A DNA stretch of 64,000 bases from assembly GCF_037975245.1 (NCBI RefSeq), contig NC_092576.1, forward strand, positions 27,479,611-27,543,610, in the 5' to 3' direction. Source of the stretch: Apostichopus japonicus (lineage: Eukaryota; Echinodermata; Holothuroidea; Aspidochirotida; Stichopodidae). Under the pieces are notes generated by a model, which saw only the letters and a program-made list of their open reading frames with translations, ran no database searches and was not told the DNA's origin. A program made the translations under genes and the position numbers. Each line of letters opens with the position of its first letter. Positions within the stretch are counted from its first letter, which is position 1. This document shows positions 11,801 through 44,300 of the stretch, in pieces.

Positions 11801-12260
11801 TAAGTTATTGATGCTCATTTTCTCTTTTTTTTTGTGTGGTTGTAATCATGTTTACTGGCAAGTCGATTACTATTTCACAATTATTAAAAGCAAATCTAGC
11901 TTCAGTGATCATAGCCAATGTTCGCCTTTCAATAGCAATAACATCGAGAGAGAGAGGACTGTCTAGGGGCAAGTCAGGAGAATGTAAACGAATTAATTTC
12001 ATGAAACTCGCAGCATGCAGATCATTTCAGAGACAGTATTTACAGTTCAGTGGCTCTCTCTCTTACTTTTTCGTAGACGTTCTGAAGTTGCTTGGCATCG
12101 ATAAGTGACATTTGTGCCAGATATTGTTGTAGAAAAAGACGGTTGTGTGCGTTTGATTTGATTGTGTTTCATCTATGGTATAAGCAAAAGTACCCAAATG
12201 ATAGTCTCGTATCATTTGGAAATTTATCAATTTTTCAACCTAGCACGGCGAAACGACAAC
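8836..12260. other. Intergenic stretch with no convincing gene
   Basis: Several short open frames exist, none with family similarity that I recognise. A purine-rich block at 9225-9390 makes a proline-rich antisense frame by composition alone. On the minus strand at 11210-11257 an ATG is followed by a hydrophobic MSIAAMYTVLWVLTVA and a GTATGT donor; this could be a signal-peptide exon, but no second exon was found. The segment 11402-11780 is one arm of a direct repeat (listed separately). Confidence 0.4.
11402..11780 (+). repeat. Left copy of a direct repeat flanking the LRR gene
   Basis: Shares long near-identical tracts with 15130-15460, for example 'gctttctgcgttaatttata' and 'cattaacattaacaaacgaa', in the same order and orientation, with diverged spacers and small indels. 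The two copies lie about 3.7 kb apart around the LRR gene, suggesting an old tandem duplication. Confidence 0.7.
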
Positions 12261-17125: not shown

Positions 17126-17139
17126 AAGAAAGAAAGAAA

Positions 17140-18290
17140 ATAAACTAGAGCACCAATGGTGCAGAAGCTCATACCTTTTCGAGCTTAAAAATGTAGGGCC
17201 CACAAAACTTTATGGCCCACCAAATTTCAGATTCCTCCAATTTTGGGCCTAGAGGGATAACCCCCCCCCCCCTCCGTTAGCAGCATCCTGGCCACACCAC
17301 TGGCTATAATTCCTATTTTCCCCCTTTAATTCCTATTTTACCCACTCTCTCAAACAATACCACTGACCTACCCTATTTAACTTTCTCCCCTCTACCTGAG
17401 CAGACATAACTCCTTCCCAAAATTTTGGCTGGCTACCTACATACCTCAGGCTCAAAGACTTCTAAGAATCGGCAAGTGCTGATTGGCTATAGGGCTCTCA
17501 TGCTTACAGTTCAACAGTTAATAACAACTCCCAATACTGCTTTAATACCACTAACAGCCTCTGCAGAGCTTAACCACAAATGTAAACAAACACTGCAGAG
17601 ACTGGGAGACAAATTAAAGGAGCTTTGGAAAAAGGTGAAGGCTCAGATTTTTCTAAAAGATGGGGATTAATTGTAATTAAATAACTTTTGACCAAAATTA
17701 TTAGGCATCACCTTATTCATACACAATCCAACAATCATCAGTTCAACTTTGAATATGATCCATCAAAATCTTGAGGAGATTGAGATATTTGAAAATATTA
17801 CAAAGAATGACCCCCGATGACCCCCTAAATAACATTTGACCTCAATTTTCCGAACACCCCTCGTAACCCTCATCCCGAGGAACGTTGTGACTAAGTTTCA
17901 TTATAACTGGCCATACACTGTACGAACGGAAGCAATTTGAAAATATAGGGCCGCGGCCCGGGCCAAAAAGACCCCTAGTTGATCTTTGATCTCAAATTCA
18001 TGAACACCCTGAAGGTAAAACTTCCATAGCACTATCGTGACAAACCCTCAACATTGTACCATGGAATCTGTAGGAGAAGAAGCATTTTGCGTATTTCCAC
18101 AAAATGGCCCATTACGGCCCACAGGTGACCTTTGACCCCAAATTTCGGACCATCTCTGATGGCCCTATACCCAATGGTCCTCGTGTCCAAGTTTCATGAA
18201 ATTCCATCAAACACTGTGCGAGTGGGAGCGGTTTTACCAATTGTTGACGGATAGAGTGATAGACGCCGCACTGTAACAATAGCACACACC
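17140..18290. repeat. Degenerate interspersed repeat, non-coding
   Basis: Contains at least three diverged units with a 'ttgacctcaaattt'-type phrase at about 17838, 17987 and 18131, each followed by a 'aagtttcat...ccatacactgtacga' phrase. No coding frame. It lies between the RT fragment and the 3' end of ILVBL and could be the internal part of an old transposon. Confidence 0.45.
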
Positions 18291-18550: not shown

Positions 18551-18736
18551 TCACACCGATAGAGAGCCTTCCCTGAAGTCTGTTTTTCCGATCAAACAAT
18601 TGACCAGAGCCGGTTTGTTGTTTTTGCTGTCTTCTTTGGCCTTCATTAGTATTTCCCTGATCCCTTCTGTTGTCTCCTCACTGAGACGGTAACCGGTCCC
18701 GCCGTAGCCTATTGCGACTTTGTCATAGTCGCAGAA
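18551..18736 (-). CDS. ILVBL: ILVBL exon 13: C-terminus
   Basis: 61 codons plus stop after [29 protein letters not shown], then [22 protein letters not shown] and stop, matching the conserved family C-terminus. Confidence 0.94.
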   Translation of the reverse strand, partial: FCDYDKVAIGYGGTGYRLSEETTEGIREILMKAKEDSKNNKPALVNCLIGKTDFREGSLSV

Positions 18737-21700
18737 CTGTAGAGGGCGACGAGAGAAGAGCAAACACATATTCAAGAGTTTTCTGATCAGAAAGGTATGT
18801 TAAAAACAAAACTTTGCAAAGGATGTGTTTAATTGTATAATACAGTGCTGGTGAAATTTACTTTACCACCTCACAAAGACTGCTATGTACGTAACGTTGA
18901 GTGGCTTGACTGGTCTGTTAACAAATTGTTGTTATCGGTAAATATTTTCAAAACTTGTGTCTTCTCTTTGACCAGCTGATCGGCATATCGACCACTGGCT
19001 ATTTATCAAAATCCAAACTGAGGCTAAAGAAATGGGTTGTTTAGGGCAGATTAATGAATCGTCACAAGTAACAAGAAGTGGCTTTGTTGTGCCCAAAAAA
19101 AATGTTCAATATTGGTTTGCTGTTATCGGCAACGAGGCTAAATTTTACAAAAAGATACCGATACGCCATCAATGATGCAAATATCGTTGCATACCGACAC
19201 AACACAATCATGGTTCTCATAGGCGTAGGGGGCGGGGGGACTGGGGGGGCTGCAGCCCCCCAACCAATCGGGCAATATGCTGTGAATTTTTTGGGCACCT
19301 ACAGAAAGAAAAGTAATTTGCACTGTGTTTTTCAATGGTTAAACTTATATTATTATTATTATCATTATTATTGTAACGACTTCCCCAATAATTATAACCA
19401 ATATGGAAGGGTAATAACAGGGCAAATGATTGTATGCTATTGGTGTGCGATGTTATAACTGATACATGCCCTAATGATATGCACATTAACATGATGAACA
19501 CCAACCATTCTTCAAGGAAATCTCTACCTCCCCCCACTCCCCGCAAGTGTATGAATGATGAAATATCAATGTCTTTTTTCTCCTCCTGCCAAACTGTTTC
19601 AAAGACAAGACCAGGATGATAATATTGAGAGTGAACTCACCGTCAAGTCACAAGCCACCCTGGTGCTGAAGATCTTTTCTTGGTCTCGTAAGATCTGAGT
19701 CCAGCAGGCGTCGTTGCCAACCACTGCTATGACCGGTATCTTATGTCTACTGAAGGTGTCAAACTCGGCCACGCTGTACCCCAGGGTCCCGTCCCCGTAG
19801 ATGATCCAGACCTCGCAGTCCGGTCGACACAACTTGGCACCGAGAGCGAAACCGCCACCTACTCCCAGAGTGCCAAAGGCTCCCGGGTCCAGCCACTTCA
19901 AGGGTCCACGGGGCCTAGAGGGAAAGAAGGTTAAACGATTTAGGGATACAAAGATTTAGGAATGAAGTAAAACAGAGAATATTATACAGATACTAAACCA
20001 TTACAAACAGGATATCTATGATTGGCTGTTGCTATTGGTTATCGCTTGCGAGAAGATATGAACCCACGTATTATTTGCCGTTTTGTCACTCTGGCAAGCT
20101 ATTGATGGAATCGAAGTAACAGAGTAACAATTTGTGGTTAATAATATGTGCATCCCTTGTGTTGGGAAAATAATAGATATCACTTTCATCAGCTCTGTTT
20201 GGACTAATGTTAAATAATGTAAGAAGGACAATCTTTATAGATTCACTGGCATAAAACACTCAAGACTGTATTGTTGAAGTAACAAGTATATATTTCACCA
20301 TTCAAACCAAGGATGCGTGCATGCAGCTGTTTAATTCAGTTAGAGACGTTTTTATTAGACTGTTCACACCTCTCAACCCACCTCACCTCAAGAAACTACC
20401 CCATGTGAAGATGTTAACTGTACTACCAAATGTGTACACCTAAGTAGACTTGAATAAGCTGAAGTAAGTCCACCTCATCCCCACCTTCAAAGTACAGTAA
20501 CTCCTCTAAGTGTTAACTGTTCTACCTATAACATCAAAGCAAATACTGTTGTGACAATGATTTAGTTGAGACACCACACCACACCCCACCCCACCACAAC
20601 CCCTCCAACCTCAAGTAATTCAATATAACTATTTAAACTTCACTAACTGTGAATCAGACCAAACTAGACTTTACCAACCATACAGTAGAACTCTCTTTTC
20701 CTCTTAATAATTTCCTTCAACACAAGGATGTCAAGAACACACAACCACTGTGCCAACCAAACTAGACTTTACCGACCCTACACAAAACTGTTTCTACTGT
20801 TTATTTCCTCCTACCTGAGGATGTCACTTTATTTCCTCCTACTTGAGGATGTCACTTTATTTCCTCCTACCTGAGGATGTCACTTTATTTCCTCCTACCT
20901 GAGGATGTCACTTTATTTCCTCCTACCTAAGGATGTCACTTTATTTCCTCCTACCTAAGGATGTCACTTTCTCCTACCTGAGGATGTCACTTTATTTTCT
21001 CCTACCTGAGGATGTCACTTTATTTTCTCCTACCTGAGGATGTCACTTTATTTCCTCCTACCTAAGGATGTCACTTTATATCCTCCTACCTAAGGATGTC
21101 ACTTTATATCCTCCTACCTAAGGATGTCACTTTATTTCCTCCTACCTGAGGATGTCACTTTATTTCCTCCTTCCTGAGGATGTCACTTTATTTCCTCCTA
21201 CCTGGGGATGTCACTTTATCGCCTCCTACCTGAGGATGTCACTTTATATCCTCCTACATAAGGATGTCACTTTATTTCCTCCTTCCTGAGGATGTCACTT
21301 TATTTCCTCCTACCTGAGGATGTCACTTTATATCCTCCTACCTAAGGATGTCACTTTATATCCTCCTACCTAAGGATGTCACTTTATTTCCTCCTTCCTG
21401 AGGATGTCACTTTATTTCCTCCTACCTGAGGATGTCACTTTATATCCTCCTACCTAAGAATGTCACTTTATATCCTCCTACCTATGGATGTCACTTTATT
21501 TCCTCCTACCTGAGGATGTCACTTTATTTCCTCCTACCTGAGGATGTCACTTTATTTCCTCCTACCTGAGGATGTCACTTTATATCCTCCTACCTAAGGA
21601 TGTCACTTTATTTCCTCCTACCTGAGGATGTCACTTTATATCCTCCTACCTGAGGATGTCACTTTATTTCCTCCTACCTATGGATGTCACTTTATATCCT

Positions 21701-24700
21701 CCTACCTGAGGATGTCACTTTATATCCTCCTACCTGAGGATGTCACTTTATTTCCTCCTACCTGAGGATGTCACTTTATTTCCTCCTACCTGAGGATGTC
21801 ACTTTATTTCCTCCTACCTGAGGATGTCACTTTATTTCCTCCTACCTGAGGATGTCACTTTATTTCCTCCTACCTGAGGATGTCACTTTATTTCCTCCTA
21901 CCTGAGGATGTCACTTTATTTCCTCCTACCTGAGGATGTCACTTTATTTCCTCCTACCTGAGGATGTCACTTTATTTCCTCCTACCTGAGGATGTCACTT
22001 TATATCCTCCTACCTGAGGATGTCACTTTATTTCCTCCTACCTGAGGATGTCACTTTATTTCCTCCTACCTGAGGATGTCACTTTATATCCTCCTACCTG
22101 AGGATGTCACTTTATATCCTCCTACCTGAGGATGTCACTTTATTTCCTCCTACCTGAGGATGTCACTTTATATCCTGCTACCTGAGGATGTCACTTTATA
22201 ACCTCCTACCTAAGGATGTCACTTTATTTCCTCCTACCTGAAGATGTCACTTTATATCCTCCTACCTAAGGATGTCACTTTATTTCCTCCTACCTGAGGA
22301 TGTCACTTTATATCCTCCTACCTGAGGATGTCACTTTATTTCCTCTTACCTGAGGATGTCACTTTATTTCCTCCTACCTAAGAATGTCACTTTATATCCT
22401 CCTACCTGAGGATGTCACTTTATTTCCTCCTACCTGAGGATGTCACTTTATATCCTCCTACCTGAGGATGTCACTTTATTTCCTCCTACCTGAGGATGTC
22501 ACTTTATATCCTGCTACCTGAGGATGTCACTTTATAACCTCCTACCTAAGGATGTCACTTTATATCCTCCTACCTGAAGATGTCACTTTATATCCTCCTA
22601 CCTAAGGATGTCACTTTATTTCCTCCTACCTGAGGATGTCACTTTATATCCTCCTACCTGAGGATGTCACTTTATTTCCTCCTACCTGAGGATGTCACTT
22701 TATTTCCTCCTACCTGAGGATGTCACTTTATATCCTCCTACCTGAGGATGTCACTTTATTTCCTCCTACCTGAGGATGTCACTTTATTTCCTCCTACCTG
22801 AGGATGTCACTTTATATCCTCCTACCTGAGGATGTCACTTTATTTCCTCCTACCTGAGGATGTCACTTTATTTCCTCCTACCTGAGGATGTCACTTTATT
22901 TCCTCCTACCTGAGGATGTCACTTTATTTCCTCCTACCTGAGGATGTCACTTTATTTCCTCCTACCTGAGGATGTCACTTTATTTCCTCCTACCTGAGGA
23001 TGTCACTTTATTTCCTCCTACCTGAGGATGTCACTTTATTTCCTCCTACCTAAGGATGTCACTTTCTCCTACCTGAGGATGTCACTTTATTTTCTCCTAC
23101 CTGAGGATGTCACTTTATTTTCTCCTACCTGAGGATGTCACCTTATTTCCTCCTACCTAAGGATGTCACTTTATATCCTCCTACCTAAGGATGTCACTTT
23201 ATATCCTCCTACCTAAGGATGTCACTTTATTTCCTCCTACCTGAGGATGTCACCTTATTTCCTCCTTCCTGAGGATGTCACTTTATTTCCTCCTACCTGA
23301 GGATGTCACTTTATCGCCGCCTACCTGAGGATGTCACTTTATATCCTCCTACCTGAGGATGTCACTTTATTTCCTCCTTCCTGAGGATGTCACTTTATTT
23401 CCTCCTACCTGAGGATGTCACTTTATATCCTCCTACCTAAGGATGTCACTTTATATCCTCCTACCTAAGGATGTCACTTTATTTCCTCCTACCTATGGAT
23501 GTCACTTTATATCCTCCTACCTGAGGATGTCACTTTATTTCCTCCTACCTATGGATGTCACTTTATATCCTCCTACCTGAGGATGTCACTTTATTTCCTC
23601 CTACGTGAGGATGTCACTTTATTTCCTCCCACCTAAGGATGCCACTTTATTTCCTCCTACCTGAGGATGTCACTTTATTTCCTCCTACGTGAGGATGTCA
23701 CTTTATTTCCTCCTACCTGAGGATGTCACTTTATTTCCTCCTACCTGAGGATGTCACTTTATTTCCTCCTACCTGAGGATGTCACTTTATTTCCTCCTAC
23801 CTGAGGATGTCACTTTATTTCCATCTACCTGAGGATGTCACTTTATTTCCTCCTACGTGAGGATGTCACTTTATTTCCTCCTACCTGAGGATGTCACTTT
23901 ATTTCCTCCTTCCTGAGGATGTCACTTTATTTTCTCCTACCTGAGGATGTCACTTTATTTCCTCCTACCTGAGGATGTCACTTTATTTCCTCCTACCTGA
24001 GGATGTAAGCTGCGCTGCCTACAAAGTCCCCTCCGTCAGCTACTATGATGCTCTCCTCGTCCATCGCCTCCTCCACCTGGTAGAGGACCTTAAGAGGATT
24101 CAGGAAATGATTCACTTTATCTTCAGCTTTCTTCCTGGAATATTAAAACCAAAATACAGCGATTAACGCTTAAATACGCTAAAAAGTCATCAGGCGCGTA
24201 GCCAAGGGGGGGGGGGGATGGGGTGACTCCCCCTTGAGCATTTTTTTTTGTAAGTTTTTATGATATCCCTAGTAATTTCAAACTAGAAAATGCTTAGATG
24301 CAACTTGCAAGGCCTGGGAAGTGCCATTTTCAGCGATCTGGGAGGCATTTTCGGCCCAAATTTTCTTGTTTGATTCGCGCCAACTCATGGTGGTGACACG
24401 CTTAGATATTGCCCAATGCTGAATCTACGGTTCCGATAATTTGACTACAGGTTCGCCCCTCCCTTGGCAAATTCCTTGCTAAGCGCCTGAAAGTCATCTC
24501 CTACTGGATGGTAGGGCGGTGCACTGTAAGTTCACAATGCTAAAGGGAACAAATGTCCTTCTGAAAGGACCATGATACCAACAAACTCTATGATTTTTGC
24601 TATGTGGTTTAGTTCTACCCTTCATCTCGGTGCTTTCGTTGATGGATTCATCAGCTTCCACTAGATCGACGCAGATTTTGACGTGGATTTATAACTTGTC

Positions 24701-27700
24701 AAGTTGAGAATGTGACAAAAGATTAAAAGGAAGAAACCAGTAATTGTGGTTGATAATGAATTGTGAAAAGTGATTCAGATTACAAATATTTCCGTTTCAA
24801 CTTTTTTTATCTTTGGGATGTTTATATTCAATTTGTATCGCTGTATTAATTGGTACTGTAGTTGCAGTGTGCAAAAAGTAATATGAACACAATATAACCT
24901 CCATTTACTTTTCATTATTTTATAAATGGCAAAACTACACTGGAGACTGCATGTTTAAGGCTAGCTTCATTCATACCGACCACATGGTCTTGTCAACACA
25001 TTCCCATATCTCTCAAAACAGGCAAAACTTTCAAGACAGGCAAAATCAAATTTATATCAAATTTGTATCAACCTTTGAGATCTTGTGAACACATTCAGCC
25101 CATTATTACATCATTATATATGTCACAGTTAAGTATCTCTTTTAGTATCATTTAGTTCATTTTGGTAATTTTAAAACTCATATTTCTTTTCAACGATAAA
25201 AGTTTGAAAAGAGACCTAGGCTCTGACTCGACACTGAACTGAGGAAAAAGTAAAACAGAAGGAAAATACCCAAGAAAGCTGCTGGACATGCAGGCTACCA
25301 AAACTTGAATCACACTTAACAACTCCATTCCCCCCCCCCTCTGACCCCCACCCTTTCATTGAGGCTGTGACCATATGATCATGGTGGTAGCAAGCCAAGG
25401 AAAGTCCTGCAACAGAAGTGAGAGAGTTCCTCTGTGTCTTGGAGCAATTTCAGATATTTTACGGAGTTGACTTACAAGTTCAACGTTTCCTTCTCTTCGT
25501 CTCTGGCCTTCAACGATTGTATCCACTCACTGCTACAGTTGAATCCTGTTAGACCCTTGGATACCTCCAGCAAGAAGGAACCTACATCAGCCTGAACTGC
25601 CAGGGCTGGTCTCCACATGACACCGGCATTCTGAACAACAATAATAACAACAGAAATTAAGATCAATTAAAATTAGACAATTGATTAGAAATTAGAAAAT
25701 TAATATATTAAGAATGAGTTAAGGAAACTGGTAGATTGGCCACAAGAGAGCCAGTTGGGACAATTTCTTCATGCTAATATATAGATAGAAACATGAATAT
25801 TCATACTATATATCTATGTCTCTGAATATGCATAGAGAGTCCTCTAAAACGTAATGAATATGTATATACTTACAAGAAGAAGTTGACTCTTGTTTCTGTT
25901 GACAGCTATGATCTTGGATCGTTTACTGCGTTAAACACACACATGAATAAATATATCTATGTCTCTGAATATGCATAGAGAGTCCTCTAAATGTAATGAA
26001 TATGTATATACTTACAAGAAGAAGTTGACTCTTGTTTCTGTTGACAGCTATGATCTTGGACCGCTTACTGAGCACTTGACCGTAGTTAAGTCTGAAGTCG
26101 GGAACAGCACCTGGGAAGTGGGAGACATTTCAAAAAAGGGGGTTGAATGCCTTGGAAGCACAGCACATAAGTGAACCACTGGTGGAAGGGTTCTCAAATT
26201 CATCACAGATAGGGTCTCATTGGGGGTGCGTGCAGTGCGAGAATGTTACCAGTTAATAGGCTGGGGTAGATAGGTGTGCATAGGTACAGGTCGGTGAGGG
26301 GTGAAGTAAGTCAGAGTAGATACCAATCACTTCACCCAACTGCAGTCATTTTGCTGGTGATTTCTCTGACCGGAATCTGGTCGTCGAATAGTCCGTTTCC
26401 GAATTACCTCAGCAGGAAGAATTTTACAAGGTTCTCCCTATCGTATTACTCTTGATATTCAGAGGTTGGCAAATGCCTTGTCGAAACAATGCAAACACGT
26501 CTCATGAGAAATCAGATTTAAAAAAAACAAGAGAGAAATGCCAAAAGGGTTTTTCAAGAAAAATGTTGAAAAGGAAAGATGACAACCTGACGATAATTTG
26601 CATATTGTATCTACAAGTGATCTGATTTGTTACTGATATACTGATATATACCATTAAACAGTAAACCTTCAAGAATGTTGTAAGTGTACAGGTTTTATAT
26701 TACAACTCCTGCTACAGTCTTAAAATAAGGAAACTTTCAATATCATCTCCAAACCAGCACTTTTGTATGTAGTATATTTTAAGGCACATTTTATATGTAG
26801 TATATTATAAGGCACATTTTATATGTAGCATATTTTAAGGCACATTTTGTATGTAGCATATTTAAATGCACATTTTGCATGTAGCATATTGTAATGCACA
26901 TTTTGTATAGCATATTGTAATGCACATTTTGTATGTAGCATATTGTAATGCACATTTTGTATGTAGCATATTGTAATGCACATTTTGTATGTAGAATTTG
27001 TAATGCACATTTTGTATGTAGTATATATTGTAATGCACATTTTGTATGTAGCATTTTGTAATGCACAGTTTGAATGAAGCATTTTGTAATGCACATTTTG
27101 TATGTAGTATATTTTAACGCACATTTTGTATGTAGTATATTGTAATGCACATTTTGTAAGTAGTATATTGTAATGCACATTTTATATGTAGCATATTGTA
27201 ATGCACATTTTGTATGTAGTACATTTTAATGCACCTTTTGTATGTAGTATATTTTAAGGCACATATTAAATGCAGCATATTTTAATGCACATTTTGTATG
27301 TAGCATATTTCAATGCACATATTAAATGCAGAATAATTTAATGCACATTTTGTATGTAGCATATTGTATTGCACATTTGGTATGTATCATATTGTAATGC
27401 ACAATTTGTATGTAGTATATTGTAATGCACATTTTGTATGCAGCATTTTGTAATGCAAATTTTGTATGTAGTATATTGTAATCAAATTTTGTATGTAGTA
27501 CATTTTAATGCACATTTTGTAGGTAGTATATTTTAATGCACATTTTGTATGTAGTACATTTTAATGCACAATTTGTATTTTGTATGAAGCATATTTTAAT
27601 GCACATATTAAATGCAGCATATTTTAATGCACATTGTATATGTATCATATTGTATTGCACATTTGGTATGTATCATATTGTAATGCACAATTTGTATGTA

Positions 27701-30700
27701 GTATATTGTAATGCACATTTTATATTCAGCATATTGTAACACACATTTTGTATGTAGTACATTTTAATGCACATTTTGTATGTTGCATATTGTTATGCAC
27801 ATGCAATTTATTTTATATATAATTTGTATGTACCATATTGCATATTGTTATGCACATGCAATTTATTTTATATATAATTTGTATGTACCATATTGTATTG
27901 CACATTTTGTATGTATCATATTGTATTGCACATTTGGTATGTATCATATTGTAATGCACAATTTGTATGTAGTATATTTTAATGCACATTTTGTATGTAG
28001 CATATTGTTACTGTATGCACATGCAATATATTTTATATATTTTGTATGTATCATATTGTATTGCACATTTCATATGTATTATATTTTATTGCACATTTTG
28101 TATGTAGCATATTGAAAACTGGTTGTTGTCCCTCACTTTTCAAGACTACAAAATTTTGCACTGATGGTCAGGAAGCAATGACAAGTTTTTAAGGCTCCAA
28201 CAACATGCAATTCGACATACAAAAACCCAAAATTAAGTTGCACTAAACCTCAACGTCGCAATTTTGGCCCAATTTTCAAGGTCATATTTTCTCCAAAGAA
28301 CAAGAGTCGAATCCAAGAGGTGACATGCCGAGAGATACTGAAGATTTGATGATTTGAAAAATGAAAAGTCTACTCACCGGCTAAAATAACCACATCTGCT
28401 TCTTTCAAAGCGTCCCTCCTTCTCTGACGGATATGTAGAGGACTGTTCCTTCCCAGCATGCCTCTGGTCATTCCGCCCAAGAAGCATGGTATACCCATTG
28501 CCTGTTAAGGATTCAAATGTTGAATGTTAATTTTTAGGGGGCGATGCTGCACAGAGTAAATACCAAATAAAAAATAATAACACTTTCTCAATTTTTTTCT
28601 CCAAAATTGTTTCTCCCATTTTTGGTGACATTGCATGCGTGTTAACACACGTGTGTGAAAAATGAACGTCACCTCTAGTGCTTTCCTGAGCTCGTCGACT
28701 GGAGTTGGAGGTAAGGTGGCTTGACTACCGAGGATGATAAGAGGTTTCTTCGCACGACTGACTAATTCTACAGCTTGCTGTACTGTAAAGATAGAAAAAG
28801 GAAATGAGTATGTGAATGTCTATAGTTCAACACTCTGATTTATCCTAACTTTATATATCAATACTACTGACTGACTAATTCTACAGCTTGCTGTACTGTA
28901 AAGATAGGGAAAGAAATGAGTATGTGAATGTCTATAGTTCAACACTCTGATTTATCCTAACTTTATATATCAATACTACTGACTGACTAATTCTACAGCT
29001 TGCTGTACTGTAAAGATAGGAAAAGAAATGAGTATGTGAATGTCTATAGTTCAACACTCTGATTTATCCTAACTTTATATATCAATACTACTGACTGACT
29101 AATTCTACAGCTTGCTGTACTGTAAAGATAGGGAAAGAAATGAGTATGTGAAAGTCTATAGTCCAACACTCTGATTTATCCTAACTCTATATATCAATAC
29201 TACTGACTGACTAATTCTACAGCTTGCTGTACTGTAAAGATAGGGAAAGAAATGAGTTTGTGAAAGTCTATAGTCAAACCCTCTGATTTATCCTAACTCT
29301 ATATATCAATACTACTGACTGACTAATTCTACAGCTTGCTGTACTGTAAAGATAGGGAAAGAAATGAGTATGTGAAAGTCTATAGTCCAACACTCTGATT
29401 TATCCTAACTCTATATATCAATACTACTGACTGACTAATTCTACAGCTTGCTGTACTGTAAAGATAGGGAAAGAAATGAGTTTGTGAAAGTCTATAGTCA
29501 AACCCTCTGATTTATCCTAACTCTATATATCAATACTACTGACTAATTCTACAGCTTGCTGTACAGTAAAGATAGGGAAAGAAATGAGTATGTGAAAGTC
29601 TAGAGTCCAACCCTCTGATTTATCCTAACTCTATATATCAATACTACTGACTGACTAATTCTACAGCTTGCTGTACTGTAAAGATAGGGAAAGAAATGAG
29701 TTTGTGAAAGTCTATAGTCAAACCTTCTGATTTATCCTAACTCTATATATCAATACTACTGACTGACTAATTCTACAGCTTGCTGTACTGTAAAGATAGG
29801 GAAAGAAATGAGTATGTGAATGTCTATAGTCCAACCCTCTGATTTATCCTAACTCTATATATCAATACTACTGACTGACTAATTCTACAGCTTGCTGTAC
29901 TGTAAAGATAGGGAAAGAAATGAGTATGTGAATGTCTATAGTCCAACCCTCTGATTTATCCTAACTCTATATCAATACTACTGACTGACTAATTCTACAG
30001 CTTGCTGTACTGTAAAGATAGGGAAAGAAATGAGTATGTGAATGTCTATAGTCCAACCCTCTGATTTATCCTAACTCTATATATCAATACTACTTTAAAA
30101 GGTCGATATTTTTGGGCTCTGCTAATATATTTTCCAGAGACTTGGTTTATCGGCAGAAGCAAGAGGAAAGTGCTCGCTTGGAGCGAGGCCAGTGAATAAA
30201 TTAATTCCTGCCATATCTGAATAACTCTAGGACTTCTCTGAATTTGCAAGATAAGGTAATATATCAAAGAAGGCATCTAAAAACAAGCTGATGTCGCCCT
30301 CAACTTTGATGTCGCCCTCAACTTATAATACAAGCCCTTCTCAGCTTAGCCAATTCGGCTTAATACCACAGCGTCTGTACCCATCATAAAGCATTGTTCG
30401 ATACAGGTGTCAAAAAGGTTTCGAACCTCTAGGCATACAATCAGTGTCCATAGCCTAGCCTGGTTAGGGTGTCCACATATAAAGTGGAAGGCCCGGGTTC
30501 GAATCCCGGTGGAGGCTGGAAGGTTTTTCCACTGTTCTGGATTTTCCAACTAATTACAATTGCAACTATATATATATATATACATATCTATATTTATCCT
30601 CTGATTAATCGCATTAACAGCTCCTTAAGCTGTAAGATAAGCCTTAACAGTGGGGTTATTCACAACTGGAAAACTACATTTTGTTGCAATCTAAGAACAC

Positions 30701-33700
30701 CGATAAACATGTCAGCTTGATCAAGGGCACCATACAAACAAAAGTAGTTCACATCAAACGTTGGAAAGAGCCAACAGTACCCTCAGAGGTTAAAAAGCTG
30801 GCATCCACTACTTTAAAATTTCAAAGCCCCCCCTGCAACCCCCTCCCTCCCCATACCCCTTCCACACCCTGATTTCTACCTTGAGATATCATGGCAGATC
30901 AGTGTTATGATAATTAATAGAAAATAAAAATTAGAAAATAAACCCAGTTGAAAAGATTTAGTGACTTGTTTAAGGTGCAAAATTCGACTTTGGAGAAGTG
31001 TCGGCTTTACCTTGGCCCGATGAAGCCATTGGTCTCTTGACAGGCAGAGGACCGTACTCCCTCAGTTCGAAACCGCCGGCGAATATGTTACCTACTAGAG
31101 ACATAGTGTACCTGGAAGAGGAATAGATAAAAAAAAATGTAAAATGTCAGTATTTTGGAGCACTTTTTAATATAATTATGCTGTGTAAAAGTGTACGTGG
31201 TTTTGTCAATGCCTATCACTGACTGCCAAAACACCTGTGTAAAGTGTGCATGGTTTGTTAATGCCTATCACTGACTAAACACCTGTGTAAAGTTTGCATG
31301 GTTTTGTTAATGCCTATCACTGACTACCAAACACCTGTGTAAAGTTTGCATGGTTTTGTCAATGCCTATCATTGACTACCAAAACACCTGTGTAAAGTTT
31401 GCATAGTTTTGTTAATGCCTAACACTGACTACCAAAACACCGATGTAAAGTGTGAGTGGTTTTGTTTAAATGCCTATCATTGACTACCGAAACACCTGTG
31501 TAAAGTGTGCGTGGTTTTGTCAATGCCTATCACTGACTGCCAAAACACCCGTGTAAAGTGTGCATGGTTTTGTTTAAATGCCTATCACTGACTACCGAAA
31601 CACCTGTGTAAAGTGTGAGTGGTTTTGTTAATGCCTATCACCGACTCCCAAAACACCTGTGTAAAGTGTGCGTGGTTTTGTCAATGCCTATCATTGACAA
31701 CCAAAACACCTGTGTAAAGTGTGAGTGGTTTTGTCAATGCCTATCATTGACTACCAAAACACCTGTGTAAAGTGTGAGTGGTTTTGTTAATGCCTATCAT
31801 TGACAACCAAAACACCTGTGTAAAGTGTGAGTGGTTTTGTCAATGCCTAACACTGACTACCAAAACACCTGTGTAAAGTGTGAGTGGTTTTGTCAATGCC
31901 TATCACTGACTGCCAAAACACCCGTGTAAAGTGTGCATGGTTTTGTCAATGCCTATCATTGACTACCAAAACACCTGTGTAAAGTGTGAGTGGTTTTGTC
32001 AATGCCTATCATTGACTACCAAAACACCTGTGTAAAGTGTGAGTGGTTTTGTTAATGCCTATCACTGGCGACCGAAACACCTGTGTAAAGTGTGAGTGGT
32101 TTTGTTAATGCCTAACACTGACTACCAAAACACCTGTGTAAAGTGTGAGTGGTTTTGTCAATGCCTATCATTGACAACCAAAACACCTGTGTAAAGTGTG
32201 AGTGGTTTTGTCAATGCCTATCATTGACTACCAAAACACCTGTGTAAAGTGTGAGTGGTTTTGTTAATGCCTATCACTGGCGACCGAAACACCTGTGTAA
32301 AGTGTGAGTGGTTTTGTTAATGCCTAACACTGACTACCAAAACACCTGTGTAAAGTGTGAGTGGTTTTGTCAATGCCTATCACTGACTGCCAAAACACCC
32401 GTGTAAAGTGTGCATGGTTTTGTTTAAATGCCTATCACTGACTACCGAAACACCTGTGTAAAGTGTGAGTGGTTTTGTTAATGCCTATCACCGACTCCCA
32501 AAACACCTGTGTAAAGTGTGCGTGGTTTTGTCAATGCCTATCATTGACAACCAAAACACCTGTGTAAAGTGTGAGTGGTTTTGTCAATGCCTATCATTGA
32601 CTACCAAAACACCTGTGTAAAGTGTGAGTGGTTTTGTTAATGCCTATCACTGGCGACCGAAACACCTGTGTAAAGTGTGAGTGGTTTTGTTAATGCCTAA
32701 CACTGACTACCAAAACACCTGTGTAAAGAATGTGCTCTTCCCTGTAGGTGTCATATTATCTGGCACAGGAATTTCCCCCCGTAAATAAGCGTGTCTTTAG
32801 TTTACAATTGATTTCCTGGTTGCAAATATTGTAAGACTTGTTAAAATAAAGTTATTCCACACTATTTGTGGAACATCCCTTCTCAATATCGTGTTCCTGA
32901 CTTGAAATTTGGTTGATTGAATGTGACCTATTTTGACTGGCTAAACCTTCAAAGTTTTACTCCACCAGGAAGTTAGATCATACTAGTAGGTCTGTGGTGC
33001 CATCTGGGCAATTGTTCTTTGAAAGCTCTGATGAGTCTATCATAATCTTCTAGTTGGTTTATCCTTGAAAGCTGATACATTTTGAATGCTTGCCTAGCTG
33101 ACAATGTGCTCAACATATTAAAAGTCTGTATAGATGTATATTTTTGGTTGACATATTCTTTCATCTGTGGATAATTGATTGAAATATTATACAGAAAAAC
33201 AAGGGCATTTTCCCTTAAAATTGCCCTGCTGATATTGTTCATTCTGCTGTTGCCAGATGCAATCTACAGAATATCACAAAATTTTGAGAAAATATTCATA
33301 ACTTCACAAAAAAAATTAAAAATCCTATGAGAATCTGTTTAAAAAAAAAAATTACCCAGAATATTATCAGCAACTCGGCTGTTGCAACCAAACTTCAGCC
33401 ACCAGAAAATCTTTCTAATGTTACCTTTGTTTTTAAAAAATCCTTCTATGCCGTCCCTCTGCCATTTCTACATTAAATAAAATGCTATGAGAATGCTTCT
33501 CTTTTTTTATGCTTATTTTTTGGGCCATAATATACTAAGAATAATATTCCCTGAAGACAGTGAATATGTTATAATCCGAACGGTGACATGTTTCTAAACG
33601 TCAAAAACCAACTACAAACAAAGATTTACAGTCAAATACTGTATCATTTAACTGTAGATGTGAGCACTACAAAACAACATGTTACCATAGATACGGTAGT

Positions 33701-35016
33701 GATGCATTTGAGTTCACTATTGATGAGATTATGGTTCAATACTGTATCATTAAACTGTAGATGTGAGCACTACAAAACAACATGTTACCATAGATACGAT
33801 AGTGAGGCATTTGAGTTCACTATTGATGAGACTATGGTTCAATACTGTATCATTAAATTGTAGATGTGAGCACTACAAAACAACATGTTACCATAGATAC
33901 GATAGTGAGGCATTTGAGTTCCCTATTGATGAGATTATGGTTCAATACTGTATCATTTTAAACTGTAGATCTAACTTCCTGTGTTTATCAACCGCTCTTT
34001 GGGAATTACGCCAATATTTGACAATGAGCGTTAATATTTCTATTGTCTTTTTCATTTTTTGGCAGTTTACTTTTCAGAGATTATTAAAACAATGTTGATC
34101 AATTTATCAATAGTATAAATACATCAAAACAGCTGGCCCTCAAAAGTATACACGTTTACCTACACAGGCTTTTTCGTATTAAGTACGACCTACTGTAAAT
34201 TAAGCAGTTCAAGCAATCAAGTATTAATTTCTTTGGCTTTGAAAATATCCGCTGTAATTTGGAAAGCTTCTTGTTTGTGTAGGGATTTATGCAAAGGAAG
34301 TTGTATTGTTTTCTCACATAGAATGAAATGCAATTTCTCTCTGACATACAGTACTGTATTCTTACAATTAATTGACAAAAAAAGGTGTTTTTTTCCCCTT
34401 CTTCTTCTGCTTCATTCTTTAAGATGCATATCTACATTAATCTGCATTTTAATGCAACATCACAATGCACTGTGTATTCATTTCTCTAATGCATAATCAT
34501 TATGCATATATACAGTATATGCATAATAAAAATGATGCATATATATATTCATATCAATTGATAAAGTACCACCAAAATCATTCACTCCCTCTCTAAGATA
34601 TTATCCATGGCAAATATTCTTGTTTGTGAAGTATATATACATGCGTGGGAAGTGTTCTTATTTCTGGTTCAAGGAAATGCCCTTTTTCGATACGCTACAT
34701 GCTTACAACTAAAGCTAACTACTGTACTGTACTGTACTGAACATGGTGATAAGGCGGTCCTACTTATCACTCCACTCACATGTTGACAATTTTACTCATT
34801 AAATCTCCTTTTGGTGAGTTCAATTCGGCCCCCTTCAGTACGTGCTGGTAGTCGTAGAGGACGTCAATGGGGAACTCAACGAATACTGGACCTGGAAGTA
34901 TAAATGTTATGAGTTATATAGATATATATATATATGTATATACATAAATACATATATATATATATATATCTATATATATATATATCTATATATATATATC
35001 TATATATATATATATA

Positions 35017-35053
<37 letters not shown>

Positions 35054-35299
35054 ATTGAATGTGTAGCAAGTGGTACGACAGATATATAGTAAATCAATAA
35101 AGAATAACACACCAGAAAAATTCCACTTCACGACCTGTTTCGTCCTTTTGGGACACATCAGGCGAAGGTACCTTCGGGCTTAGGTTTGTGACACGAAGAT
35201 CCAGGGTTCGATTCCTACCTTCGCCTGATGGGTCCCAAAAGGACGAAACCGGTCGTGAAGTGGAATTTTTCTGGTGTGTTATTCTTTATTGATTTACTA

Positions 35300-35342
<43 letters not shown>

Positions 35343-38300
35343 TATATATAAAACAAAGTTTCATTTTGATTTATTTCACACCATAATACAAAAGACAATA
35401 CAAGACACCTTGACAATACAGGTCACATGGTCTAGGGTTGACACAGAAAAGTCTGTCCAGCAGACTCATGTCCACTGTGGTCCCTGTACATACAAACCAA
35501 TAATACATAAAGAGAAGTTGGAATGCCTAGCAGCATATATAGAAACACACTAGTCTCGCCTTTGTGGGAAACATTTGTTATGATGTGGGTGGCCAAATTC
35601 CAACTCAACCTCATTGCTAAATTTATGTCTTGTCCGATCAGATCCGTGGAAATGGTTAAAGCACTGCTGCTATTGACAATTTCAGACCACCTTGTATAAT
35701 ATACTAAATGTTGTTGGAAGGACCTAAAGGTAAAGCACGGTTTTTTATGAAAGGTTTGTTAATGTACCCTGGATGGTCATGTCAGCTGACAAAAGAGAGG
35801 CCATATCTGGAGTAATTTGGTAAGCTCATACTGGCAGTACAGACAGGTATTAACCCAGTCACTATTTCCTGTATTTACAGTAAGTAGAATGCAGTCACTA
35901 CTGCACATATGGGATAGTGTCACGTGTGTGACAGCTCAGAGCAGGAAATAGTCACTGCCTGTTGTTGCCAGGCTCACAATCATTAGCCACTGGCATAAAA
36001 TAATTAGCCAGTGCATAACAAGTCTACTTGATATAAGCAACAACTCTCTAGAGCTGGCATATTCCTTGAATTATTAAAATACAAAAGCGACATTTGACTG
36101 TTCTGACAGAAAAAAACGTTAGAGCATTTTTTTTTATTTATTCATTTTTTATTTAATTTCGCCTTAATTTTGAGGCCAGCGTGTCACAAACTCTGCAGGA
36201 CAGGCTGGACAGTCACCATGTGACAGTACAACACAATCAGGTACAAACTATTGTACACACTATAGTCACTCAGTGCAGGAGGATACTGTACATTCAATAT
36301 GATGACAGCTGAAGGATACAGTCACTGTGTGACAGTTGACATCTGAAGGATACAGTCACTGTGTGACAGCTGACATCTGAAGGGTACAGTCACTGCGTGA
36401 CCGCTGACATCTGAAAATGCAGTCACTGTGCGACAGCTGACGGATACAGTCACTGTGTGACAGCTGACATCTGAAGGATACAGTCACTGTGTGACAGCTG
36501 ACAGCTCAGACAGGAAAGCAGTCACATTGTGACTGCACCAAAGTCAGAGCTACCAGAAGTTAATATCACAAATGTTTAGATCCTATTTAACACAAAATCT
36601 TAAAATTTGGTGTTGGGGGTTTGTTAATGAACTTAAATACAAGAATGTGACTGACTTGACATCAATAACTAAATATTCATAAGTTTAACCTAATTTTACA
36701 TACCTGGCGTATCAGACTGGGCCACCCGTATGGCCTCCCTCAAGACTGGGGCGATATCTCGGACGGTTTGGACCGCTGCGCAAAACTTGCAGAGCGGTTT
36801 AAATAACGACATCTGATCTATATCTTGGAGGGTACCTTGACCCTGAAAATGAAGGATATATCAACTTTACAGATATAAGGGCATACTGTACAATGATCTC
36901 TCTCCCTGATTAAGGAACATTTTGCAATGAAGCTTTGAGCAACACGATGTGTCCCCCCCCCCCCCCCCGTTTCATCTGAACTCCATAAAGGGGAGGCAGA
37001 TTTAAAGCATCAGGTACAGTAGGGTGGGAGGGAGGGAGGGAAAATCCACTTTTTTATCCCAACATTTTGACTTTTGAGATAAAAAAACCCAAATTTTTGC
37101 ACCTCCTATTTCAACGAAGAGTCTACACAGCAGGCTGTGATTAATCAGGACGGTGATGATAATTTTGTTAAAATCTGCTTTTGAAAAATATCGTAAACTG
37201 CAAACTCTGCACAGATTGTCTTTATGTGAACACTTTGGTGTCGTACCCTAAAATATTACGCAGCACACAAATAATTATTAACAACATTTTGCTTGTAAAA
37301 GCACCATTGCTCACTCAATCCCCCCCCCCCCATTAAGACCCTAGGTCTGGTATACTGTATACATACATTTTGTACTGTTTGTTTCTTGGTTGGGGGAGGG
37401 GGGATCATGGAAACCAGTTTGTGTCCACAGCAGAACCATAAACCATTGTATGCAAACCCCCTTCAACTACTGTAGGCCTACACATGTCCCTATTCCCAGT
37501 TAGCTTACAAGTGTTTATGAAGACAAGCAGACATCACCCTAGAGTCCTATTGTCCAACTGTACTGTACAGTAGTTCAACACTCATCCCATTCGTGTTTTT
37601 TTTTCCTCTCCCTTTCAGATATCTCCAACTGCACCTGTGTAGCTGTAGATAGTCCACCCATTCTGTACGTGGCTTGGGGTCATATTCACTCCAGCAGGAA
37701 GCATAGACCTACACTAAGATATTATTGAGCTTGCCCATATGACCTACAGTACTGTAGGTTCAATTGGCTAAACTGGTGTCTAAGAAAGTTCTTTCTTTAC
37801 CGTACGGTACAGTGTCGACCCCGTTGTAGTACTGGCCACCTACTGTGAAGACCCTACAATACAGTATAATGCCATACAGTATGTACAATGTCTACCACTT
37901 TGTAGCATTGGCCCCCCCCCCCCGTATTGTGAGATGACTACAATACAGTACAGTTGCCATACAGTACAATGTTGACCACGTTGTACATATTGATGGCCCC
38001 CTACTGTGAAAATCCTACAATACAGTATAATGTAGACCATGTTGTATTGGCCCCCTACTGTGAAAAGCCTACAAATACAGTATAATGTCGAACATGTTGT
38101 ATTGGCCCCCTACTGTGCAAAGCCTACAATAGAGCATTATCCTGATCATGAAAATTTGGTTCCCATGAATGTCCCATCTACGGCGATGTCGAGAAGTGTT
38201 TTGAGAAACAGCAGTGCTGACTACGAGATGGCAGATGAAGGAAGCGGATCATAAGGCCCCGATGTGGGGGTTAATCGGGGGGGGTGTTTGCTTTTTGTGG

Positions 38301-41300
38301 AGTAAAGACATGCATCCTGGGAGAAGTGATGTAAATATCTTCATACCTTTAATAGCGAAACAGCTGCTCCTCCCATTAACAGGACGGGAGTCTCTGCCAT
38401 CTGTGCGTTCTTCACCGCTGTGATGGTGTTGGTGAGACAGGGGCCCGCGGTCACCACAGCCGCACCGATGGCACCGGTCATCCTGGCCACTGCATCGGCG
38501 GCAAAGACAGCCGTAACCTGGGAAACAAAAGATTGAAACAATCTGACTGAAGTACTATAGCAGAACTACTGTGCAAACACTGTTTTAGTTGGCATTGGAG
38601 CAGCGATAGGAATTTATGATATCAAATTGGATTTCTCATAAATAAATAAAGTCATAGATATATGTAATGAGAAAAGTGAACATTATTAAAACCGGCTGTC
38701 TGTTTTCATACAGCTCTGTCATGATTGTTTAAATTACAAATCTCCACTTTTTGGGAAACCATATATATACAGTATTATTCATAATCCCCACACCATAGGA
38801 TAATAGTTTTTGTCAACCACATGAAAAGTAAGTCACACATTGGAGACCTGTGAGTGTGCTGAGTCACTGTTTAACAGACTGTACATCTCTCCTTATACAA
38901 CCTACAGTAGAGCCTATAGACCCATCTACATTTTTCACTGTCAGAACCTTCTTGAATACTGTAGTAGGTGATTGCTTGTTATTACTTTGATAAGTTCTAC
39001 CCATATGGCACCTATGTTCTACAGTAGTAGCCAGCCTGCTGTTACCTCTTGTTGTTATTATTGGAATCAGGGTATTATGACAAATCACATTTTTTGGGCC
39101 TGAACATTGTTTTATCTCTGACTGAGTATGCTTGGATCTCAGAGAGGGGTTCACCCGGTTCACCAAACAGCCTTTAGTTAGTGTTCATGTTTTGTAGGCA
39201 GGTTCTGTAGGCGTTTATCTTGTATTAGTAGGAGGCGAACCATATATTTGTTGAGATTTAATGACCTTTACATGCATAACTGTACCGTCCAAAACTTTAT
39301 GAATGTTTAGACTAGTTGATAGACAAGTTTAAAGGTGATAGGTCTGTTTTCTACTGTATACAGCAAACAGTGAACATTTCATGACAGATATATTTCCATG
39401 ACGAACGAAGTAGATAAATATGTTCAGTGTGATTGATGATACCATGGCGTGTGCAACTTAAAGAAAATGTATGGAGGGAGAAAAAAACAAAATTCTAGAC
39501 AACCGCATGTGCTTACTAAAATCTACAAGCAAACCATTCTATGGAACTATAAAGTCTGTAAAGAGTTTTAGAGGAAAATTGTCAAAGTTAGACTGATTTC
39601 ACTACATGATACAGAAGGAGATAAACTGTACAAAACTGTACAAAACTGTTAGAGCAAGTAGATGAGAAAGTGTAACAGTAGTGAGAGGACAGGTGAATCA
39701 GAAAAGCACAGTACTTGAGTGTGATTCAGTCAACAGCAGCTACTCCAGATAGAGGGTGCTCAGGTTGTGGGGAGACAGGTAAGCGAGGAACGAAGTAAAT
39801 AATTTATCCGGTACATTGCACAGCAATTTGCTGTGCAAAAGCAGGAAATTATTATGCAAGTGTAAAGATGTATGTATGGTATATGTAAGCAGCTTTTGTA
39901 AGCATGTAACCATAGTATTTTACACAGGAACCAGGGTATTTTACACAGGAACCAGGGTATTTTACACAGAATCCAGGGTACATAGTTTACACAGGAACCA
40001 GGGTATTTTATAAGACAGGAAGTTGAAAAAGCCTGTTACTGTACACTGTACTGTAGATGTACCAAATTTGAACACTTAACTGTTTTTTCTTTACTTATTG
40101 CCCTGGTGATTGAAACAGTGAGGTTATGTGTAAAATTATTTATATATATAGTAGAGTGTTGTGGTCAAGTGGTAAAAGGCAGTGGGCTTATAAAATAAGG
40201 TTTGCAGGTTTGAGTCCTGGCCAGATCATTGCGTTGTGTCCTTGGGCAAGGCACTCCACTGCATCGTTACCCAGGTCACCAGGTGTATCAACTGGGACTT
40301 GTGAGGTAACTTGTAAATATACAGTAGTCCCATGCACAGGTTTGCAGCTGCACCCTATGGGAAATCCCCCAAGGGACACATAGGACGGGGGTTGTGCACT
40401 GTAGTGCCCCAGAAGGGATTGTTTGAATTGTGCACACTTTGGTGGGTGGGTGTGACGACAAGTTAACAATGACCAGGGGTTAAGTGTTGTAAAGTACTGT
40501 ACTCCTGTGATGACCCTTGGCCTTGGCCCTGACTGTAAAACCTTCAATTTTCAACTAAAGCACTGATAATACAGTGAACTGCTGTAAACTGTATCTCTCT
40601 ATTTGGATTCCATCATTGTACAGTTGCAGGTACAGTACAGTATGACACCATTAACTAGCTAAATAGCTCATTAAAGTCTCTGAAATGAAAATATTGTATA
40701 AAGCTATGCACCCAAGCATCACAACCTATGTACCAGTTGATTGTTCATACAATTATACATGTTTTGTTTTTAAACAACCATCTGTTAGTATTGTCCAAAG
40801 AAATTTGGGCTCTTTTGAGAAGAACTTAGTATCTTTTTCTTTAAAAGAAAGAAAGATAAAAGTTCATAATTAAATGTGTTTTATTATGTTTTGCATAGAC
40901 AGGCCTACAGTAGTTTGTGATTGTACAGTATATATACAGTATACTACTTAAGGTTCATTTATCAAAAACAAAACAAAATGTCCCATGGTCTGGACGGACA
41001 AGCAGTTTTGAAGACTTTGCGGCCCGGGCTAGGACATAGCGTCCCGGCCACGGAATTCTGTGTATTTGTAACAATGCTGGCATTATTTAAGAGTGCTAAT
41101 TATTGTCAAAATAGATCTACTGTACAACTCTGATGCATACTGTACAGGTGCAGTATACATTATGTGCTCAGGCTATTAATAACTGCAAGCAAACACTGTA
41201 ACTGTAACGTAATGTAACATACTGTTACATATTGTACTGTATCAATGATAATACTGTAACTCTACTTTTCTAAGATTGGTGGTCCGTTCCCCCCCACCCC

Positions 41301-44300
41301 CCTCCCTCTACACTCTCCTAATGAAGAATAAAGAAAAACAGGGATTACATTTGGCGAATTTGAAAACACTTTTTTCTTCTCGCATAATAATACATGTATG
41401 GCGGCAAACGTTACTTGGCTTTGCAAGGAGTCTGCCTTACCATGACGACCTATTAAGGCCCGGTCACACTATACCGATTTTTTATCAAAATGCTATCCGA
41501 TTTTTCCCTAGGAACCAGTTTTTCGTTCGGGTCTTCTAGCCACTGTGATAAAGGACCTGATTTGCTATCTGTTGAGCCATTCCGATGTGGAATTAGCCCT
41601 CTCCTAACTTTTGATATTGACTCTGTTTCCTTTTATCGGATAGCTATCCGATTTCTCTTCCGATTTTTATCGTTTTTCGATGTGACGTCACTTTAGAATG
41701 TAGTCCGTTCCAGATCTGGAGTAGGTTTTCGAATATTCCACTGCAGTCATTACATTCACTACCACAAACCTCACTCTTCGACCTATAATCGGAAAAATCG
41801 GACTGTTTTCCGATAAAATATCGCTGTAGTGTGACCGGGCCTTTACCGTGGCTTACCTCATGTCTCGTGTTTATCACTCGGATGCCTTCTCTCTCCGCTG
41901 CGACGTTAATCGGTGAAATGTGACCTCCGCATAGCGTAAAGAGGAACTTGACCCCATGAGCTTTCAGAACCTCAGCCACGATGTCACCTCCATTACTCTT
42001 GCTGTTTACAGCAGGCTATGAAAATATGAAAAAAGCAAATTATTATGAAATGTGATTGCAAACTGAGGGGAGAAAGGGGAAGGGGGGAAGGAGGGGATGG
42101 GAGGGGAAGGAGGGGATGGAAAGATGAAGGTGAGGGAGGGGCAGGGATGTGGGGTTTTGAATGTAATGTGGTACTTGACCCCATGAACTTTCAGAACCTC
42201 AGCCCAAGGGTTGAAATAAGCGGGCGCCCAGGCGCTATTCGCGCCCGCAAGCACTAAAATAGCGCCCCTGGACATGAAAATACAATACGCACAGGTGCTA
42301 CTTTGTCAGCAAATAAGCGCCCGCATACTCCTGTAAATATCAGCCTTATCATGCACTGCACCGAAGCCTGAAACTACATTGCATGCTAGTGCTATATAGT
42401 AACTGCTAGCGATTTGATAAATCACTGATCGATCGAGTGCGTGCACAATAGCACTGGTGCACATGGTTTACTGTATATATCGCACAACACCTGTACTGAT
42501 ACGTACATACATGCCGTACTTGAATTTTGTTTCTCCTTTTTAGCTCCTGGTAGTGAGAAAATAGCTCCTGGTCCTACTGAAATTTCCACGAACCAGGAGC
42601 CACTTTCTTAGAAAGTGGCTCCTGGTCCAGAAATCCTTATTTTAACCCTTGCCTCAGCCACGATGTCACCTCCATTACTCTTGCTGTTTACAGCAGGCTA
42701 TGAAAATATGAAAAAAGCAAATTATTATGAAATGTGATTGCAAACTGAGGGGGAAGGAGGTGATGGGAGGGGAAGGGAGGGGAGGGATGAAAGGTGGTGG
42801 AGGGGCAGGGATGGGGTTTTGAATGTAATGTGGTCCATGTCATCTTTCACTTGCAGAAAGAGCCAATAAGTTGATAACAATTTGAAGTGAGCTCTAATTA
42901 TTCACTCCCCAGCTTAACTTTGCTCCCATAGTCAGTGACTCGTTGATTTGATATAATATTATCAATATATAGCTTAAGTTCAAGGATTGCTCGGTGCTTG
43001 TATACATAGGTAGAGATAACACATGTTGGAAAGCCTGAGATATCGTGGTACACTAAAATAAGGCTAGTATACTGTAACGTTGTAGCATTGCATGGGCATG
43101 AGCCCTGGCAAATGAATCCCAGTTTGTGTAGTGCAAAGCTTCAATGTAAACTAAACACAGTGTTTAAAAGCTAATAACTTATATAGGGAGTTACTGCAGA
43201 ATACCACTCTTGGAACGGTATAGTTTGTACGGCTTAGCCACCTACGCAGTCACTCATTTGGGGCAAATATTTTTCAGAATGATGCATCACTACAATTTGT
43301 TGTCTGTACTGTACATGCATAAGTACCATACAAAGAATGTAGTAATATTGTAGGCCTCTAGGCTAGCACTAGGTTTTTGCACTAAATAAAAGCCTTGAAA
43401 AGTATCTTGTGTGACTGCACATGGGGCATAGGCTCTTTAGGCTGGCATTTACTGAAACAAAATATATCTCAAGGACTTCAAGAGAGTTTTCAGTGTACTG
43501 TAGCTACCTTGATAACAAGAATTAAGTACAGTAGTGTAAATTTAAAAATTTAACAGTTCCTTGGGCAGTTAAAGTAACAGTGTGTACTGTAACAACATAG
43601 CTGGATGCAAGGTGAAGTTAAATTATAGTTGCAGAGTACTCTGCAATTGCGATTCACGGAATTCTTTTCTCAAACTTCTGACCTACGCTTGGGTATAAGT
43701 TTATAACGTCTATTCAGGGCATAAAGTAGGCATAGGTGTCAACTACTGTACACTACCATAGTACCAGTAGACACTATGAAGCCGAGCTTAATAGCGAGCG
43801 TAACGAATCATCTCTAACAGTTAGGCTATACTATAATAGTTAGGCTAGATGTTCACAGCCGACACATTGCTGTGTACTACTGCGTTCCGTATTCACTATC
43901 AGACCTGTTCATTATAATTGACAAGTAGAAAAAATGACTTAACGTTAAACGAATTTTTACTATACACTTTAGCCTAAAGTTTGTTAGAGTCGAACCACAT
44001 TGATCTAATCGAAACAAAGTGAACGCAACGTTACAAATTTCAGGAAGTATTGTGATGGTACTGTATGTCCTTCAAAGCGTGCGACATTGAGCAACAATCC
44101 CTGATAATATATGCAATATCGCTATGCTCAACGAAAACTTGAAGAATAAATGTACAAATGATAATGCAAAAAAAGTATTTAATAACTAACGGGATGGAAG
44201 AATTGATAGATTATACTATATTTATGAGCAGCAAAGGCAATTGCTGCTAAAAGAAGCAAAACGACCGTTCCAATCGTGTACAGAAGCACTTCCACAATCG

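Follow-up and report, generated by a model that had tools for sequence, protein, structure and literature searches.

Analysis of a 64,000-nucleotide stretch of the sea cucumber Apostichopus japonicus genome (contig NC_092576.1, positions 27,479,611 to 27,543,610; hereafter the window) identified a 28-bp minisatellite at the exon 11/intron 11 junction of ILVBL, the gene for 2-hydroxyacyl-CoA lyase 2, in which the junction with its splice donor is itself the repeated unit. ILVBL is present in five copies, named A to E, of which copy C lies in the window; the number of exon 11 donor units is 1 in E, 18 in D, 30 in B, 115 in C and an estimated ~9,400 in A. The array is likely to be a neutral minisatellite that originated from the junction and reached the size of satellite DNA in copy A, the donor adjacent to the exon probably being the one in use.

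The exon 11/intron 11 junction of ILVBL as the repeated unit

Tandem Repeats Finder detected in the window a repeat of period 28 with 114.9 copies, 94% matches and 0% indels. Counting unit by unit on the minus (transcript) strand gave 113 units of 28 bp and two of 23 bp, 115 in total. The array begins 10 nt inside the 3' end of exon 11 and every unit carries the last 10 exonic nucleotides and the donor, in agreement with a preliminary description of the sequence, which had recognized the junction in the unit and placed the start of the array at the exon edge. Intron 11 of copy C (19915-23996) is 4,082 bp long, and the array accounts for 3,197 bp of it (78%). With head-to-tail units of 28 bp and counts that vary among five paralogues, the element falls within the definition of a minisatellite (units of about 10-100 bp, variable copy number).

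The dinucleotide GT is present in 109 of the 115 units, AG|GT in 104 and the exact sequence CAG|GTAGGA in 74. The preliminary figure of more than 110 near-consensus donors was thus right as to their abundance and slightly too high as to their number. Beyond the array a diverged extra unit was found (19/28 positions; best of 200 shuffles 18), contained in a wider and older duplication (local score 73; best of 1000 shuffles 44), which points to an earlier round of duplication.

The best named relative of the copy C protein was the A. japonicus HACL2-like protein P0121. The exon 11/12 join reads L-R-P-R-G-P, where AG|G encodes an arginine found also in four aligned relatives, which identifies the first, exon-touching donor as the correct one.

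Array length in five ILVBL copies

A search of the genome (671.6 Mb) placed the window at 27479611-27543610 of the chromosome and matched the full exon 11-array probe at four places. By protein search, exons of five ILVBL copies were located, every one of them on the chromosome of the window, with coding sequences 95-98% alike. In all four array-bearing copies the array is attached to the edge of exon 11 and the unit is the junction; an array lacking homology to the exon edge, which would have spoken against a junction origin, was therefore not seen among the paralogues of this species.

Copy E, on the plus strand, is complete and its translation is identical to P0121, the reference protein of A. 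japonicus (625/625). Copies B and C are intact genes of 13 exons. The array of B is composed of 29 full units and one 25-bp unit; the 30 matches used for B in the stop test described below comprise a diverged copy past the array besides the 29 full units, the 25-bp unit having been counted by eye. Copy D is without exons 6-8, and one nucleotide is missing from its exon 12. Copy A has a 1-nt deletion in exon 2, its first donor reads CAT|GT, and its exon 1 was not found within 27155001-27225000, the range covered. At positions conserved in relatives the same substitutions (e.g. D91N, G122C) occur in B, C and D, while E retains the conserved residues; judging from these shared substitutions, the duplicated copies may have undergone a functional shift.

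In copy A the unit matches extend from 27177923 to 26913759, that is, over 264,165 bp of intron 11, which at 28 bp per unit corresponds to an estimated ~9,430 units. About 67 kb, one quarter of the span, was read and all of it was array: 818 units (22.9 kb) on the exon side, 1472 units (41.2 kb) on the far side and 105 units in three 1-kb samples from the middle, two of which were placed in the widest gap between the matches listed. At the far end all 1471 unit spacings were exactly 28 bp. The 1472 far-side units comprise 57 variants, and blocks of identical order reach 126 units (3.5 kb) on the far side and 77 on the exon side, against 8 and 5 for shuffled order. Copy A alone has a tandem array in the size range of satellite DNA (~100 kb or more). 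The unit matches listed (~150 of 210; 40 of 176 candidates scored) all fall within this one gene cluster. The range from 1 to ~9,400 (estimated) units in five paralogues agrees with the fast length evolution that had been supposed from the window.

The exon 7 acceptor has been copied as well: it occurs once in E, 3 times in B, 12 times in C and 92 times in A, and the exon was not found in D. In A this 112-bp unit, with ~92 copies, occupies ~10 kb at chromosome positions ~27182983-27193100. The five gene copies, the reference copy with a single unit, the 264-kb sister array and the copied exon 7 acceptor and exon 9 donor are all additions to the preliminary description.

The single junction of copy E reads TTACATCCTCAG|GTAGGAGGAAATAAAGTGACATCCTTGGTTTG, and its unit is bounded by a 7-bp direct repeat, ACATCCT, exactly 28 bp apart, one half of which is coding. 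In the model proposed by Haber and Louis (1998) for the origin of minisatellites, slippage or unequal exchange requires repeats of 5-10 bp flanking the future unit, as the model is summarized in the sources cited (PMC6947457, PMC3389668). The ILVBL case differs from that model in that the repeat is half coding and lies at an exon end, so that the donor became trapped in the unit.

Copies A to D carry, after the array, a stretch of 388-487 bp (388 in A, 487 in C) which is absent from E. The possibility that this stretch is an inserted transposon, which would make E ancestral, found no support: it had four matches in the genome, those of A-D, and is no dispersed repeat.

The order of units was compared between copies and no sharing beyond that of shuffled orders was detected, except for one unit (A-C, 9 vs 8). 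Shared order as a trace of a large common array was thus not seen, and each array seems to have turned over on its own. Some unit variants are common to different copies; a small mixed array probably predated the A-D split and was then turned over separately in each copy. The tree of the ILVBL copies is weakly resolved, with support of 55-60 and E set by hand as outgroup.

We propose that 28 bp spanning the exon 11/intron 11 junction were tandemly duplicated in the ancestry of four of the five copies, and that the arrays would then have expanded and shrunk separately in each of them through slippage, unequal exchange and block duplication, up to 264 kb in A.

Donor choice and competing explanations

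The consequences of using an internal donor were the same throughout. All 108 GT-bearing downstream units of copy C led to an in-frame stop, the first of which begins 1 nt past the true donor, and all 29 internal matches of copy B led to a stop after exon 11. This bears out the immediate in-frame TAG of the preliminary description and, provided that the gene works, its corollary that the first donor must be favoured. Wrong acceptors of exon 7 gave a stop in 11 of 11 cases in C (AG intact in 10) and in 2 of 2 in B, and wrong donors of exon 9 in 1/1 in C, 1/1 in B and 2/2 in E. In E the two extra exon 9 ends (chromosome 27721293 and downstream) are located at +144, with GT kept but weaker, and at +279, with GTAAGT kept; both stop in-frame if used.

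Between B and C, 20 synonymous and 10 non-synonymous changes were counted, giving a ratio of non-synonymous to synonymous rates (dN/dS) of 0.16; the values were 0.14 for C-E and 0.12 for B-E. Comparisons with the broken copies A and D gave 0.15-0.28, similar enough that the ratios must also reflect the time before breakage. From their sequences copies B and C look kept under constraint, and with both intact and a dN/dS of 0.16 the decoy donors appear to be tolerated. The classification of copy C as a plain pseudogene was disfavoured by the intact frame and the dN/dS values.

Because the other choices tested place a stop after exon 11, we infer that the exon-touching donor is the one spliced; the remaining array would be removed as intron, which would explain why it is tolerated. 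Exon definition offers the simplest account: the genuine exon 11 together with its acceptor would pair with the nearest donor. By the same logic the last, exon-touching copy of the exon 7 acceptor would be used. Both arrays extend on the intron side only, which would match exon definition, whereas a choice of the innermost sites would produce stop-bearing messenger RNAs (mRNAs) and would make the constraint on B and C hard to keep.

Several observations weigh against this interpretation. The unit donor is strong: its pairing with the U1 5' end (-10.7 kcal/mol) ranks second among the 12 donors of the gene, and of the 1522 further GT sites that the gene span contains outside the array, 2 reach that strength. 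According to older splicing work, of two equal donors the one closer to the acceptor can prevail at high U1 levels; these mRNAs would then be spoiled. None of the 2,557 units read had a changed G(+1), although the same holds for the T at unit position 4, a base without a part in splicing. The low dN/dS is also compatible with gene conversion or with a recent loss of function, the copy C protein deviating at 5 of the 291 columns invariant across eight related proteins (seven from named echinoderms). As to the origin, copy E may be the product of a contraction or deletion with ATCCT microhomology rather than the ancestral form; since the post-array stretch is absent from E and is no dispersed repeat, the seeding step is not proved.

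The array could alternatively act as a splicing dial, in which strong identical donors compete, use of an internal donor leads to decay of the resulting TAG-bearing mRNA, and the output of each copy depends on array length. The GT present in 109 of 115 units, the second-strongest donor of the gene, the stop on every internal choice tested and the wide length differences among copies would all be expected. Nevertheless, no selection on the donor copies was seen: T(+2) differs in 6 of 115 units of C (5.2%) and in 62 of 818 and 61 of 1472 units of A (4-8%), no less than many other unit positions. Coding constraint in B and C despite 30 and 115 donors and the lack of preference for junctions in duplication (see below) also speak against the dial, which we regard as improbable. 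The broader proposal is of a satellite founded on a donor, with acting U1 sites: in copy A a 265-kb intron consisting almost entirely of thousands of strong donors would be transcribed, ILVBL output in B and C would be set via nonsense-mediated decay by competition among donors or by U1 loading of the intron, and array length would be a fast-evolving splicing dial. It appears to us a little more doubtful still. The holding of U1, the shifting of donor choice and the dosage by nonsense-mediated decay suggested in the preliminary description thus found no support in the variation at T(+2) or in the distribution of duplicated junctions.

That splice sites, for instance through R-loops or U1-bound nascent RNA, seed tandem arrays by attracting duplication is suggested by the four junctions of copy C with extra copies: the exon 2 acceptor, the exon 7 acceptor, the exon 9 donor and the exon 11 donor. 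Extra copies were found for 11 of 90 junction 30-mers against 341 of 1600 intron 30-mers in B-E, that is, without enrichment at junctions. By copy the figures were 4/24 against 82/400 in B, 4/24 against 133/400 in C, 2/18 against 69/400 in D and 1/24 against 57/400 in E; in A they were 4/20 against 297/400. The test is coarse, as the intron control counts area and not events, but 30-mers away from junctions were duplicated at least as often in all five copies, as a region generally rich in tandem duplications would show, and junction-targeted duplication seems very unlikely. Recursive splicing, with each CCTCAG|GTAGGA serving as acceptor and regenerated donor and the array as a ladder of ratchet points, would suit the CAG|GT form of the AG|GT units, since splicing onto one restores an identical exon end. 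As an acceptor the unit is poor, however, with 6 pyrimidines in the 16 positions from -20 to -5, where the gene's 12 real acceptors have 9-15, the transcript side being purine-rich; we give this explanation almost no weight.

An assembly artefact had to be considered for the long arrays, chiefly that of copy A. The published A. japonicus HiFi assembly is described as having 671.6 Mb, 34 scaffolds and a mean read of 14.7 kb (PMC10344927). The 264 kb of copy A greatly exceed such a read, and the part examined directly covers about a quarter of the span. On the other hand, one read is far longer than the array of C (3.2 kb) or those of B and D; an artefact, named in the preliminary description as a refuting outcome, is thus unlikely in the window. 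In A, the 57 variants among 1472 units and identical blocks of at most 126 units (3.5 kb) make reads placeable, and the three middle samples were array throughout (105 units). We hold an artefact to be highly improbable and retain the neutral, junction-derived minisatellite as the favoured explanation.

Further features, known systems and meaning

The features of the ILVBL gene and its repeats in the window are collected in Table 1. In addition, the exon 2 acceptor of copy C has one additional copy 682 nt upstream. Intron 8 of copy C harbours a second, degenerate array of 28-bp period (GCACATTTTGTATGTAGCATATTGTAAT) with ~49 copies (26757-28114), and intron 4 a match to the type I hammerhead ribozyme (35126-35167, minus strand) scoring 34.4 bits against a family threshold of 34.

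Table 1. Positions in the window of ILVBL copy C and of its repeated elements.
Feature	Position	Strand	Remarks
ILVBL (2-hydroxyacyl-CoA lyase 2), copy C	18551..44304	-	13 exons, GT-AG introns, 625-aa open frame
ILVBL exon 12	19641..19914	-	acceptor ...CCCTCTAG|GCCCCGTGG
Diverged extra unit past array	20705..20732	-	
28-bp array	20800..24006	-	115 units ACATCCTCAG|GTAGGAGGAAATAAAGTG; first 10 nt (23997-24006) = exon 11 end
ILVBL exon 11	23997..24134	-	ends ...GCTTACATCCTCAG|GTAGGAGG; exon-touching donor CAG|GTAGGA
Exon 9 donor duplication	25808..26070	-	142 bp x 1.8; exon 9 end and donor CTT|GTAAGT (exon 9 = 26016-26110)
Exon 7 acceptor array	28756..30094	-	112-bp unit x 12.0; TTTACAG|TACAGCAAGC and first 27 nt of exon 7 (28673-28782)

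Elsewhere in the window, the plus strand contains an uninterrupted leucine-rich-repeat open reading frame of 514 aa (12162-13706). Its top database proteins are from A. japonicus (93% and 91%) and the next is at 47%, from which it seems to be part of a local gene family. Three matches resembling transfer RNAs (tRNAs) on the same strand (30444-30517, 44475-44547 and 48315-48387) have the odd anticodons ATA, ACA and ACA and are possibly tRNA-derived short repeats. On the minus strand, a Sema-domain open reading frame and two reverse-transcriptase fragments were found at 7708-8859, 16347-17144 and 46172-46771.

Among the top-ranked results of a literature search, none dealt with this locus or with a sea cucumber satellite built on a splice donor. 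The nearest precedent is the minisatellite of the human gene 6-16 (IFI6), which is said to have a 12-bp unit, about 26 units and several donors used in mRNA. Both minisatellites are located at an exon/intron junction, carry a donor in each unit and start at a genuine exon end. The ILVBL array differs in belonging to an enzyme gene of a sea cucumber, in its 28-bp unit, in its 115 to ~9,400 (estimated) units, in its five paralogues and in the acceptor array of the same gene; the use of multiple donors in mRNA is reported for 6-16, and the comparison for ILVBL covers genomic sequence.

The array of copy A resembles satellite DNA in its 264 kb of head-to-tail units and differs from it in being intronic, with the listed matches in one cluster. 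The Rogers model, in which introns are gained by tandem duplication of AGGT, and for which a 24-bp AGGT segment duplicated in fission yeasts has been described (PMC4974935), shares with ILVBL a unit containing AG|GT and a junction-spanning tandem duplication as the basic event. In ILVBL an old intron was lengthened and none was created; the two are related in anatomy and not in outcome. A similar picture is provided by earthworm metallothionein genes, whose intron minisatellites, unlike the exons, have diverged from one gene copy to another, the units being, as far as described, without splice sites (PMC12783039). New in ILVBL are the scale, the series of paralogues, the pairing with an acceptor array and the growth to satellite size.

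The ILVBL copies constitute a natural series in which a near-identical donor of a single gene occurs 1, 18, 30, 115 and an estimated ~9,400 times and an acceptor 1, 3, 12 and 92 times. The spliceosome's choice between identical sites can readily be tested on it: under exon definition the donor and acceptor that touch the exon should be used, under intron definition those lying innermost, and stops follow from the wrong choices tested. They also provide a traceable case of satellite-sized DNA derived from the edge of a coding exon.

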